A stretch of 59,288 nucleotides of DNA, from assembly GCA_016283275.1 (NCBI GenBank), contig JAEEMP010000119.1:1-59288 (forward strand), written 5' to 3'. This stretch comes from Lachnospiraceae bacterium. Lineage in GTDB: Bacteria; Bacillota; Clostridia; Lachnospirales; Lachnospiraceae. Positions 40,093-43,799 of the stretch are shown piece after piece (the stretch's first letter is position 1; every line of letters begins with the position of its first letter). Both the position numbers and the translations under genes were made by a program. The notes beneath the pieces were generated by a model. That model was not told the DNA's origin, did not search any database, and saw only the letters and a list, made by a program, of their open reading frames with translations.

Positions 40093-40128
40093 AAAAAGAC
40101 CTTAACTCAATCGGGTTAAGGTCTTTTT
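40093..40128. terminator. Bidirectional terminator shared by the LacI gene and the radical SAM operon
   Basis: The stem AAAAAGACCTTAAC/GTTAAGGTCTTTTT gives A/T-runs on both sides. The last three codons and stop of the radical SAM gene lie within it. Confidence 0.9.
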
Positions 40129-41129
40129 ACGCAATAAGGTGATTCATACAGCTTTTTGTGTACAAAATAATTATATGATCTGCAGCCTCCCGCACAATAC
40201 TCTCCGTATTCGCATTCGGCGCATTTCCCGGTAAGATACTCCGCTTTAAAACCTCTGTTGTACGAAAAACCTTCGGGATCTTCCCAGATTTCACGAAGAG
40301 ACTTTTCACGTAAGTTTCCTTCGTTAAAATGCTCGTCGTACATGGATTCACATCCTCTTACATTACCGACGCTGTCTATCCCCACAGCGGATATCCCCGC
40401 CGAGCAGCCGCGAAAATACGCTTTTCCGCTCAAATTGCCCCTTATGCTTCCTTCTTCCGGCGAAAAATAACCGATATTATCGGCCACGCCGAGCATAAAC
40501 GGCGCTTTGTACATATGACTTACGGTAAAATCGATAACACTCTTAAAATCAAATCTATAGTCCACACTTCCGTCGGAAGCATTCCCCATAGGCGAGCATG
40601 CCTGCAATTGCCAAGCAAATATATCATGCTTAATAAGTTCCTCATAAAGATCGTCAAGGCATGCCGCGTTTTCTTTATTGAGCGTTGATATCACCGATAC
40701 CGGTATGCCCGAATCCGACAGTGCGTCTATGGCATTTAAAGCTCTTTCAAAACTGCCCGGCTGCCTGTATTTATCATGGACCTCTTTTGTGCCGTCCACA
40801 GAGACCGAAACGGATTCGACATTTATCTCTTTAAGATCGTCAAGTATTGACTTTGTGAAAATATAGCCGTTTGTGATGATATTTACCGCTATGCCTCTTT
40901 TGGAAAGCTCACCCGCTATCTCTTTCCAGTCCTTTCGCATAAACACTTCGCCGCCGATAAGCGATACTCTTTCGCATCCAAGCTCGGAAAGCTGCCTTGC
41001 CACATCAAGGCACTCCGCTGTCGAAAGTTCGCAATCACGGGCTCTTCCGGCCCCGGATCCGCAGTATTTACAGGAAAAACAACAAGCCAGAGTGATCTCC
41101 CATACACAGCTTATAAGATCATATGTCAT
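40116..41129 (-). CDS. Radical SAM/SPASM-domain enzyme, putative peptide maturase
   Basis: About 337 residues. The radical SAM cluster motif CCFSCKYC (C-x3-C-x2-C) is near the N-terminus (residues 16-23 from the chosen start), followed by SLIGGEVFMRKDW and VSVSVDGTKEVHDKYRQPGSFERAL. The C-terminus is a SPASM/twitch-type domain with FRGCSAGISAVGID, RGCESMYD, CAECEYGEYCAGGCRSYNYF and a last Cys, for auxiliary Fe-S clusters. Such enzymes modify side chains in ribosomal peptides or metalloenzymes. The start is the ATG at 41129, whose GGAG site lies in the last codons of the VYAGP-repeat gene; the genes overlap by 11 bases. That coupling makes the repeat protein its likely substrate. The chemistry is unknown. 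Confidence 0.9.
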   Translation of the reverse strand: MTYDLISCVWEITLACCFSCKYCGSGAGRARDCELSTAECLDVARQLSELGCERVSLIGGEVFMRKDWKEIAGELSKRGIAVNIITNGYIFTKSILDDLKEINVESVSVSVDGTKEVHDKYRQPGSFERALNAIDALSDSGIPVSVISTLNKENAACLDDLYEELIKHDIFAWQLQACSPMGNASDGSVDYRFDFKSVIDFTVSHMYKAPFMLGVADNIGYFSPEEGSIRGNLSGKAYFRGCSAGISAVGIDSVGNVRGCESMYDEHFNEGNLREKSLREIWEDPEGFSYNRGFKAEYLTGKCAECEYGEYCAGGCRSYNYFVHKKLYESPYCVKRP

Positions 41130-41520
41130 ATGAAACATCTCCGCCGCATTCGGGACAGAATTTATATGATTTTAGCATCCTTGCCCCGCAGTTTCTGCAA
41201 AACTTCGTGGGTTTTCCGGCAAACTCATCAACAGGTTCAAAAGGTTTACTGCCCTCCGGATTAAAAGGATTCCCGTTTTGCTGAAAGAACCCGCCCTGCT
41301 GTTGCTGCATCATAGTCGGACCCGCATATACAAACCCTATAGGACCTGCATAAACTCCTTCCATAATTGCGGGGTTGGGTCTGACCGGACCAGCATAGAC
41401 AAGTCCCGACGGCGCATCGGAGCCTGCCGGTCTTTCCGGACCGGCATACACTTTTTTCATTGTAAAATTCCCATGTCGTTTTGCTCCCTCGGGATATTTT
41501 TCGCCCATTTCATTATTCAT
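41119..41520 (-). CDS. Small VYAGP-repeat protein with C-terminal zinc ribbon; putative radical SAM substrate
   Basis: 133 residues from the ATG that has AAAGGAG upstream. The pentapeptide VYAGP occurs four times (residues 24-28, 41-45, 56-60, 64-68), followed by a Gln/Asn/Gly/Phe-rich stretch and a zinc ribbon (Cys108, 111, 122, 125: CRNC and CPEC). Short N-terminal part, no signal peptide. The repeated identical core in otherwise variable, Pro/Gly-rich sequence, directly ahead of an overlapping radical SAM/SPASM gene, is how multi-core RiPP precursors look; the zinc ribbon could then serve as recognition part. It might instead be a small regulatory or scaffold protein. I do not recognise a named family. 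Confidence 0.82.
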   Translation of the reverse strand: MNNEMGEKYPEGAKRHGNFTMKKVYAGPERPAGSDAPSGLVYAGPVRPNPAIMEGVYAGPIGFVYAGPTMMQQQQGGFFQQNGNPFNPEGSKPFEPVDEFAGKPTKFCRNCGARMLKSYKFCPECGGDVSYDI

Positions 41521-41577
41521 ACCAAACACTCCTTTCCGCTCATGATCATCGATCACGTTATCCCCTTTTTGTTACTT

Positions 41578-41973
41578 TTACTCTCTTACCGTTTTGCTTT
41601 TTATCTTTGAATTTATGAATTCGATGTCACGCTTTGTCCTGAACGCGTCGACAAAATAAGCCATAACAAGAACGATCCCGACATAGATGAACGCCATCCA
41701 GAAATTGCTTTTATAAAACCAGCCCGCGATAAATCCAAACAGCATCACGATCCCCGATGCCGATATATATTTTACCGCATAACAGCCGAGTATGGGAAGC
41801 GTTGTGTACTCATCGATAAAGTAGTTTGCAAGCGATATGACAAACGAAAGAATAAAAAGGCAGATCACAAGTTTTATCTCATCCGTCATTCCGACCCATA
41901 TCATCGACACGGTAAAAACACACAATATCATCAATGCTGCCAGTATGCATGTATCTCTTAATATCCTCTTCAT
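41578..41973 (-). CDS. DUF3021-like small membrane protein paired with LytTR regulator
   Basis: 131 residues with four hydrophobic segments (about 8-26, 33-54, 65-86, 92-108) and a charged tail. Size, four helices and the position right after a LytTR gene (ATGA overlap) fit the DUF3021 family, whose members accompany LytTR DNA-binding proteins in many Firmicutes and are thought to hold or inhibit the regulator at the membrane. The role here is inferred from that pairing. Confidence 0.8.
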   Translation of the reverse strand: MKRILRDTCILAALMILCVFTVSMIWVGMTDEIKLVICLFILSFVISLANYFIDEYTTLPILGCYAVKYISASGIVMLFGFIAGWFYKSNFWMAFIYVGIVLVMAYFVDAFRTKRDIEFINSKIKSKTVRE

Positions 41974-42413
41974 GGGTTTTTCCTCTTAAAGATCTTCTTT
42001 ATGTCCGGCAGATATTTTCTGGATACGATCAGTTTCTCGTCATTGTCCATTACCGCCTCGAGATGGCTGTTTCGCATCTGCCTTATCTCCCTTAAATGAT
42101 CGGTATTCATGATGCATGTTCTTGAAATCCGCACAAGCCCCGTTTCATCCATGACGTTTTCGATATCCGCCATCGCTCCGTCAAACCTGTACACTTCATT
42201 ACGTGTATAAATAAAAAGTTTTCTTTCCACGTTTTCTACGTAATAAAGGTCAGACACGCCGATATTAACGGACCTGTTTTCGCATTTGCCCGTAAAAGAA
42301 AGGTCCATCCTGCCTATCTTTTTGTACAGGCCCTCGACCGATTCATTCCACTCCGGATACTCTATGATGACAGTCAAAGGCTGTCCTTTTACTTCTCGCT
42401 TCTCAATTCTCAT
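41970..42413 (-). CDS. LytTR-domain transcriptional regulator
   Basis: 147 residues. The C-terminal two-thirds is a LytTR DNA-binding domain: DLYYVENVERKLFIYTRNEVYRF, GLVRISRTCIMNTDHLREIR and LIVSRKYLPDIKKIF. The N-terminus lacks a receiver domain, so it is not a classical response regulator and probably depends on the membrane protein encoded next. It overlaps the serine hydrolase gene by 11 bases. Direct repeats 21 bases apart upstream of the operon (43817-43844) are good candidates for its binding site, which would make the operon self-regulated. Confidence 0.92.
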   Translation of the reverse strand: MRIEKREVKGQPLTVIIEYPEWNESVEGLYKKIGRMDLSFTGKCENRSVNIGVSDLYYVENVERKLFIYTRNEVYRFDGAMADIENVMDETGLVRISRTCIMNTDHLREIRQMRNSHLEAVMDNDEKLIVSRKYLPDIKKIFKRKNP

Positions 42414-43746
42414 TTTTCCTTAATTTCCACAGTTTTATTGCTATGGTAAATACAGCGGCGGTCAGTATTATCAGTCCTCCCGTAAAACTGTACGGTGCCC
42501 AGACGAATGCAATATCCTTAAGCTCCGCTTTAAAAACAAGCGGCATCACGATACAGATCGATATAAGAACAGTGACAGACAAAATTCCCGCTACCAACAG
42601 TGTACCACGTCTTTTCACAAAGAGAATAGATATAATTAAAAGAACCCACAATATTGTTACGGCACTGAAAATAAGATCGAACACCGTCCACACGTCGCCT
42701 GCTATCGGCACGGTATCTGCGCCCGAACATACAGCATATATCCCGTTACACAGACTGTCCGTTGAAGCTGCCACGTTCATGTTTGTAAGAACGCATACAC
42801 CGATCTTTTTTTCCTCTGAAAATACAATCCTTGAGGAATAGTTAGGCGTCCCTCCCGAGTGGCCTGTTGTTCCGCTTTCAAACGATTCCCATCCCGAATA
42901 ATAATCACCCGGCTTAATTAATTCCGACTTAACGGCACTTATAAGATCTTTAAACTCTTTTGGGATATCGGTCGAACCGAGCCAGATTCCGATCCATCTT
43001 GCCATATCATTAATATTCGAATAAAAGTAGCCCGCAGGTATCTGCCCCTCGGCGACCTTTATCTCATATCGGAAAGCATGCCGGTATCCGGGTCTTGAAC
43101 CGCGGATAATGCTTGCCCCGTCACCGGGCATCTGCACATATGTGTTTGTAAGGCCCAAAGGGATCAGGATGTTTGTTTCCATGTATTCCCGGTAGCTTAA
43201 TCCCGAAGCCTTTTCGATCACCGCACCTAAAAGGTTATAATTAACGTTTGAATACGAATATCTCTCACCGGGCCTATAGTTTAACTCTTTACCCGAAATA
43301 CTGTCCGCCCAGTCCATGAGAGTCATATCATCCGAAGCGCTCGGAAAAAGTTTTTCGCTGTTTGTATATCCGCTTGTCTGTTTAAGAAGCTGATCGATAG
43401 TGATATCGCAGGCTTCATGCCCGTAAACGGCCGTAAAGCCGGGCAGCAGTTTAGACACCGTGTCGTCTTTTGAAAGTGTTCCTTCGGCGATAAGTTTTTG
43501 AACCGCAAGCCCGGTAAATGCCTTGGTCATCGATCCGATCTGATATAAGCCTTCTGCATCACCGTAAACTTCGGTCTTATCCCCGTCTACGACGGCTACG
43601 CTTACCGCGCGGCATTTGGTCTTTGTCTTAAACTCTTCTATTTGATCCGAAACGTGTTCTTTTACCTCATCCGCGTATGCGTATGCCTTGTCCGCGATCA
43701 AAATCGATATCATCAGCAGCAACGTTATGATCTTTATTCTCTTCAT
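42403..43746 (-). CDS. Membrane-anchored serine hydrolase, beta-lactamase/DD-peptidase fold (class C-like)
   Basis: 447 residues with a signal peptide or anchor (MKRIKIITLLLMISILIADKAYA). Active-site motifs are SMTK (nucleophile Ser), YSN in YSYSNVNYN, and HSGG near TGHSGGTPNYSS. Three C-terminal membrane helices follow (about 335-445). The fold covers penicillin-binding proteins, esterases and D-amino-acid peptidases. It faces outside and heads an operon with a LytTR regulator, a repeat peptide and a radical SAM enzyme, so it could process or sense an exported product, or guard against beta-lactams; neither is shown. The start has GGAGG 8 bases upstream. Confidence 0.9.
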   Translation of the reverse strand: MKRIKIITLLLMISILIADKAYAYADEVKEHVSDQIEEFKTKTKCRAVSVAVVDGDKTEVYGDAEGLYQIGSMTKAFTGLAVQKLIAEGTLSKDDTVSKLLPGFTAVYGHEACDITIDQLLKQTSGYTNSEKLFPSASDDMTLMDWADSISGKELNYRPGERYSYSNVNYNLLGAVIEKASGLSYREYMETNILIPLGLTNTYVQMPGDGASIIRGSRPGYRHAFRYEIKVAEGQIPAGYFYSNINDMARWIGIWLGSTDIPKEFKDLISAVKSELIKPGDYYSGWESFESGTTGHSGGTPNYSSRIVFSEEKKIGVCVLTNMNVAASTDSLCNGIYAVCSGADTVPIAGDVWTVFDLIFSAVTILWVLLIISILFVKRRGTLLVAGILSVTVLISICIVMPLVFKAELKDIAFVWAPYSFTGGLIILTAAVFTIAIKLWKLRKNEN

Positions 43747-43799
43747 AAAAAATTCCTCCATGATCTTTAACGATCATAGAGGAATCAAAAAAACTTCTC

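Follow-up and report, generated by a model that had tools for sequence, protein, structure and literature searches.

The DNA analyzed here is the 59,288-nt contig JAEEMP010000119.1 of a Lachnospiraceae bacterium (assembly GCA_016283275.1), referred to in its full length as the window, and our subject is a pair of genes on its minus strand: a 133-residue protein that repeats the pentapeptide VYAGP (P0001) and a radical S-adenosylmethionine (SAM) enzyme with a SPASM domain (P0002). The pair ends a run of five packed genes, in the order serine hydrolase, LytTR regulator, DUF3021-like membrane protein, VYAGP-repeat protein and radical SAM/SPASM enzyme. The coordinates bear out the close packing reported in a preliminary description of this DNA: with stop codons counted, three of the four junctions overlap (by 11, 4 and 20 bp, the last being the overlap of the P0002 start with P0001), and the DUF3021/VYAGP junction is a 57-bp gap. 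The genes and the elements of P0001 are as follows.

42406..43746, minus strand: serine hydrolase, PF00144, beta-lactamase family; not a conserved partner
41973..42413, minus strand: LytTR DNA-binding regulator, Pfam match; not a conserved partner
41581..41973, minus strand: DUF3021-like membrane protein, PF11457 at 20.1 bits, below the cut-off of 24.7; same operon, not a conserved partner
41122..41520, minus strand: VYAGP-repeat protein P0001, 133 aa, proposed multi-site substrate
41491..41499, minus strand: N-terminal KYP motif of P0001, residues 8-10
41437..41451, minus strand: VYAGP copy 1, residues 24-28
41386..41400, minus strand: VYAGP copy 2, residues 41-45
41341..41355, minus strand: VYAGP copy 3, residues 56-60
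41317..41331, minus strand: VYAGP copy 4, residues 64-68
41143..41202, minus strand: C-terminal zinc ribbon of P0001, residues 107-126, with C108/C111/C122/C125, PF13240
40119..41138 (start possibly 41129), minus strand: radical SAM/SPASM enzyme P0002, 340 aa, PF04055 and PF13186 above cut-off

As first described, P0001 holds exactly four VYAGP copies, starting at residues 24, 41, 56 and 64, together with a zinc ribbon, which matches PF13240 at 27.4 bits, just above the cut-off of 25. When P0001 was shuffled 200,000 times, one VYAGP copy arose in 95 shuffles and two copies in none. All four Val codons and all four Ala codons are represented among the four copies, so they are maintained as protein sequence and do not stem from a recent duplication of the DNA, a sign of selection acting on the peptide. 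The rest of this genome has three further matches to the VYAGP DNA pattern: by eye one falls in a ribosomal protein L13 frame and one in a peptidase-E-like frame, and the third lies outside any 50-residue VYAGP frame. The L13 frame (L081, G000 contig C23; assigned by eye) holds LFVYAGPEHKH, with the same VYAGPE string, presumably by coincidence. By eye P0001 has no signal peptide, and NCBIfam and Pfam scans gave no match to a Nif11 or NHLP leader at E ≤ 1. The domain matches of P0002 and its overlap with the repeat gene likewise agree with the initial assignment. Its CX3CX2C motif lies at C19/C23/C26 and the cysteines of the SPASM pattern at C245, C263, C306, C309, C315, C319 and C336, all of them invariant in 10 of 10 aligned enzymes. 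Since most homologues start near an MKYxL-type sequence, the true start of P0002 is possibly the second ATG at 41129, which would shorten the overlap to 11 bp, and not 41138.

The conserved unit at this locus is the last two genes only, and their pairing is strongly supported. Scanning genome contigs with P0002 gave ten loci at 65-97% identity, and a profile of ten enzymes run against 397 genomes of the family gave 14 strong matches including the window (543-712 bits; the next seven at 235-301). Outside this family but within the class, the same profile found five more matches (454-554 bits), and two of the families concerned yielded six further enzymes, the five remaining matches there being already known. 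Counting once a record present twice (L039 = G189), there are 34 distinct loci, with the enzyme cut in L042 and L183. A motif-bearing gene adjoins the enzyme in 33 of them: in 26 a single protein carries two strict copies or more ([VATI]Y[AGMN][GA]P), and seven have one strict copy or only relaxed copies (L066, L068, whose motif frame runs to the contig end, L073, L074, L075, L076 and L187). At the 34th, L185, the enzyme starts 77 bp from the contig end and its neighbor is not assessable. The preliminary description had joined the repeat protein and the enzyme from their context in this one locus, and the recurrence of the pair upholds that link. The motif gene is mostly upstream of the enzyme; it is downstream in L074 and L096, and downstream on the other strand in L075. 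L097, L098 and L182 have motif genes on both flanks.

Several wider counts bear on the pairing. A six-frame reading of 19 wide loci (287 kb, frames of 60 residues or more) gave 24 frames with the relaxed motif, 21 of them neighbors of the enzyme, and every locus had at least one such neighbor. When 27 loci were compared by simple gene finding (frames of at least 70 residues), the enzyme recurred in all of them; differences in the spacers split the motif genes into several clusters, and no further neighboring gene family was widespread. A profile of the repeat protein matched 134 of the 397 genomes at E ≤ 1e-6, and among the matches listed six exceed 40 bits, all beside the enzyme; in the other 128 genomes no match exceeds 40 bits, and among the matches listed the weak ones align mainly in the zinc-ribbon columns, for which reason we did not count them as repeat proteins. 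As DNA, the VYAGP pattern is present in 334 of the 397 genomes, usually with one or two matches per strand. Sixteen genomes were listed in detail, most of them chosen for many raw matches and the carriers G266 and G285 among them; only these two carriers have copies no more than 1 kb apart. No repeat protein without the enzyme was thus seen in either the 397-genome profile search or the 16 detailed genomes, and a predominance of such proteins had been named as the outcome that would speak against the link; the profile is incompletely sensitive, however, and several enzyme-linked proteins were overlooked or placed low in its ranking.

That the five genes form one functional unit, as the operon had been presented, is not supported. 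The three upstream genes, P0003-P0005, were found only in L033, a 97%-identical relative, among the 28 other loci searched (27 distinct), and we rejected the five-gene unit. We also rejected carriage by phages or plasmids: there was no relative among the 14 pattern matches in viral contigs, no close relative in 18 phage records (23-32% identity among the five matches listed) and none on plasmids (best match listed 38%).

The motif itself is constant. In 98 copies from 23 repeat proteins (L033 was omitted as a near-copy), Tyr and the Pro at +3 are invariant, and the overall form is V/A-Y-A/M/G/N-G/A-P, with V89/A7/I1/T1 at -1, A85/M5/G5/N3 at +1 and G92/A6 at +2. The flanks prefer M/I/F at -4, E at +4 and M/Y/F at +5/+6, one chance match being included in this count. 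A repeat protein holds up to ten copies. All 24 listed repeat proteins have a YP motif, mostly KYP, and 19 of the 24 have the zinc ribbon, which is common without being universal (some of the other five are possibly cut or frame-shifted). Modification of a cysteine or of the zinc ribbon is not favored, with Cys at -2 in only 17 copies and five of the 24 proteins lacking the ribbon. The sites in the window are VYAGP; the X-Y-G form, VYGGP, is present in eight copies within the VYAGP clade, in the f18 relatives L096-L099, L182 and L183. Outside the repeat family, the carriers are a 77-residue zinc-ribbon protein (L073), short proteins (L074 and L075) and a kinase-FHA protein (L076). By eye they have the motif in common and little else, which fits what would be expected of a modified site. 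The kinase-FHA protein (L076:9108-10385) has a single TVYAAPG between its kinase and FHA domains and overlaps the VYAGP-clade enzyme; near this pair lies an SPFH/Band_7 zinc-ribbon protein, whose homologues are also found near the L097 and L099 pairs.

To place the enzyme, we compared P0002 with known families. The best NCBIfam model is TIGR04103, the family that we take to be the same as IPR026482, at 247 bits, far below its cut-off of 725, and the second-best is TIGR03913 at 221 bits; these two models also rank at the top for three enzymes of the neighboring clade and for three more from the VYAGP clade itself. In a tree of 46 enzymes, the VYAGP clade (100/99) adjoins a clade of clostridial X-Y-G enzymes (96/97) and a clade of TIGR04103 and GDL enzymes (100/100). 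WQxQ, MGN, IGY and other residues form a set that is conserved in the VYAGP clade and, for the most part, in the two other groups; MftC, PqqE and two further enzymes did not show this set. Judged from sequence, P0002 is best explained as a compact enzyme within a proposed splicease-type group made up of TIGR04103, TIGR03913 and the clostridial X-Y-G enzymes.

Each of these groups resembles the VYAGP system in part. The splicease PlpX, which works with PlpY, is placed in IPR026482 in a passage of PMC11002830. An enzyme annotated as TIGR04103 and encoded on a Nostoc plasmid (L108) is 36% identical to P0002 over residues 11-339 and adjoins a Nif11 precursor ending in ALYGLPPELF, with Pro at +3 as in VYAGP (LYGLP), and a 71-residue protein in the PlpY position. 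Passages of the published work also describe ketoamide production without the leader. In contrast, the +1 residue in the VYAGP system is mostly Ala, the VYAGP operon has no gene in the PlpY position, and P0001, without a Nif11 leader, would be a multi-site zinc-ribbon substrate. The GDL motif peptide-associated maturases (TIGR03913) come with DUF1843 peptides; all 11 GDL-type peptides read XY(A/G/M), with A, G or M after Tyr as in MYAAS, LYAAG, PYGAG, LYGGA, PYGVA, PYGPA and MYMAT; unlike P0001 these peptides are small and single-site. By eye the GDL-type enzymes L107:3935-5359 and L109:3881-5431 have a C-terminal zinc ribbon (CxxC...CPHC; no Pfam ribbon above cut-off), whereas in the VYAGP system the ribbon is on the proposed substrate.

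The clostridial X-Y-G enzymes have the residue set, and one of them (L102, the L063 enzyme) is 36% identical to P0002 over residues 1-337, although most are about 150 residues longer, with TPR-like regions by eye. Their systems too have repeated Tyr sites in a neighboring protein. Among the 14 loci of this clade, 12 were scanned, and repeated X-Y-G proteins adjoin the enzyme in six (L058, L059, L063 and L089-L091). The sites differ from VYAGP: L089 and L090 have three YGI sites, L058, L059 and L063 have KYGYP repeats, and L091 has xYGVP repeats after a chagasin-type inhibitor domain (PF09394, 46 bits). The proteins with many KYGYP or xYGVP repeats (L058:2549-3469, L059:2548-3084, L063:274-1434 and L091:362-1306) suggest protein-type splicease substrates that are protease inhibitors; those of L058, L059 and L063 are like that of L091 by eye and have no Pfam match, the chagasin-type I42 inhibitor domain being recognized by Pfam in L091 only. 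In L060 (197-1483), a frame with PYAAPDPGP overlaps the start of an X-Y-G-clade enzyme.

Taken together, P0001 is very probably the substrate of P0002. In the passages of published work on tyramine-excising spliceases the sites are X-Y-G, and because A, G or M recurs after Tyr across the group, we infer tyramine excision at VYAGP as well. On balance we favor a splicease-type enzyme that excises tyramine at each VYAGP and so leaves an intracellular protein with several keto-beta-valine sites. P0002 would recognize a repeated tag, approximately [M/I/F]-x-x-V-Y-A-G-P-E-[M/Y/F]-[M/F], in the neighboring protein; the tyramine part of each VYAGP Tyr would most likely be excised, and the Val carbonyl would be fused to the former Tyr carbonyl, giving one alpha-keto-beta-valine (a ketoamide) per site. 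The predicted mass loss is 135.07 Da per site and approximately 540.27 Da for the four sites of P0001. The KYP segment and the zinc ribbon may be docking elements or may contribute to what the finished protein does.

Several observations weigh against tyramine excision. The score of P0002 for TIGR04103 is far below the cut-off, and the model also gives matches below its cut-off in 13 of 14 control genomes, so that a match to it alone is not diagnostic. Support for uniting the three enzyme groups against four other enzymes is only 93/92, with long outgroup branches, for which reason we take this grouping as support and not as proof, and a single signature residue is found in an outgroup enzyme (W176 in L002). 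The other six of the 12 scanned X-Y-G-clade loci have no X-Y-G repeat protein: L106 has a single MYG in an unannotated frame, the L060 enzyme lies beside the PYAAP protein, and L057 and L092-L094 showed no such site. After Tyr, 85 of 98 copies have Ala where the published XYG sites have Gly. Moreover, within the operon no separate small gene occupies the PlpY position, be it inside the pair or following it, though a partner may lie elsewhere in the genome. Pfam likewise gave no match to an RRE (RiPP recognition element; RiPP, ribosomally synthesized and post-translationally modified peptide) family among the five operon proteins, and the presumed PlpY of the Nostoc locus is unrecognized by Pfam in the same way.

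These points leave some room for another radical SAM chemistry at the Tyr or Val of VYAGP, such as a C-C or ether cross-link, oxidation at an alpha- or beta-carbon, epimerization or cleavage of the Tyr side chain. Radical SAM/SPASM enzymes carry out many types of reaction, and the usual Ala at +1, the low TIGR04103 score and the matching of that model below its cut-off in control genomes are compatible with such a reaction. Nevertheless, the groups that share the residue signature of P0002 have XYG or XY(A/G/M) sites and VYGGP is present in the VYAGP clade itself, and we therefore regard a different chemistry as possible but rather unlikely. It is improbable that the VYAGP protein is a partner or scaffold with a repeated binding motif, the true substrate lying elsewhere: the zinc ribbon, the N-terminus of several relatives, amphipathic by eye, and the single motif in the kinase-FHA protein of L076 would suit such a role, whereas a modified site better accounts for the invariance of Tyr and Pro across as many as ten copies and for the recurrence of the motif in the dissimilar neighbors of L073, L074, L075 and L076. 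The preliminary description had also pointed to mycofactocin, in which a Val-Tyr pair is altered by the SPASM enzyme MftC. Val does precede Tyr in 89 of 98 copies, but the MftC model (TIGR03962) scores 129 bits against a cut-off of 265 and ranks seventh in the NCBIfam list for P0002, well behind TIGR04103, and a named MftC is only 29% identical and without the residue set. Furthermore, the Tyr of the mycofactocin precursor is C-terminal whereas all four in P0001 are internal, where Tyr undergoes no decarboxylation without chain cleavage, and NCBIfam and Pfam scans found no MftB or MftD among the five operon proteins. We rejected this reading on the score, identity and residue set of MftC, and consider a mycofactocin-like modification highly improbable.

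Returning to the proposed ketoamide protein, the comparison of 27 loci showed no transporter or protease family recurring beside the pair in at least three loci, and ABC ATPase frames in six of the 27 lie more than 1 kb from the pair. With no recurring exporter or protease and no signal peptide, the product would probably be an intracellular protein bearing several electrophilic backbone ketoamides, and not an exported small peptide. Set against the multi-core RiPP precursor of the preliminary description, P0001 looks less like a classical small RiPP with leader and cores than like a protein with several short sites. The keto-beta-amino acid modification is used as a moiety for protease inhibition according to a passage of PMC11002830; from this use and the inhibitor domain of L091, a protease-binding role is plausible by analogy, and a signalling role would fit the kinase-FHA carrier of L076. 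We would guess that the product is a multivalent protease-binding or signalling protein. More tentatively, and with somewhat less than even confidence, we suggest a general, leader-free backbone splicing of intracellular Clostridia proteins, in which one enzyme would act on one to ten VYAGP tags of a dedicated zinc-ribbon protein, or of the kinase-FHA protein and others in apparently early-branching members, and several keto-beta-amino acids per protein would be a functional, non-secreted modification.

Searches of the open literature by motif, YAGP/RiPP and splicease returned no paper on the VYAGP system in the titles, abstracts and passages retrieved, and the sole match to VYAGP was a gel-chemistry paper. 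A survey of 939 predicted splicease systems, cited in a passage of PMC10533398, may contain the VYAGP clade. If the proposal is true, backbone splicing would extend to multi-site modification of a dedicated intracellular protein by a compact enzyme with a five-residue site in gut and rumen bacteria. The enzyme would then be a candidate tool to place reactive ketoamides in proteins, and the loss of 135.07 Da at each site offers a precise test.

Promoter-like sites are about as common as in shuffles (8 versus a mean of 7.9), and Rfam gave no match in the window at gathering scores. A 15-pair hairpin (G-U pairs included) followed by a U run lies at 43751-43786 (fold z-score -5.5). The ribosome-binding site likely used by the serine hydrolase falls within this hairpin, which is possibly an attenuator or a translational switch.

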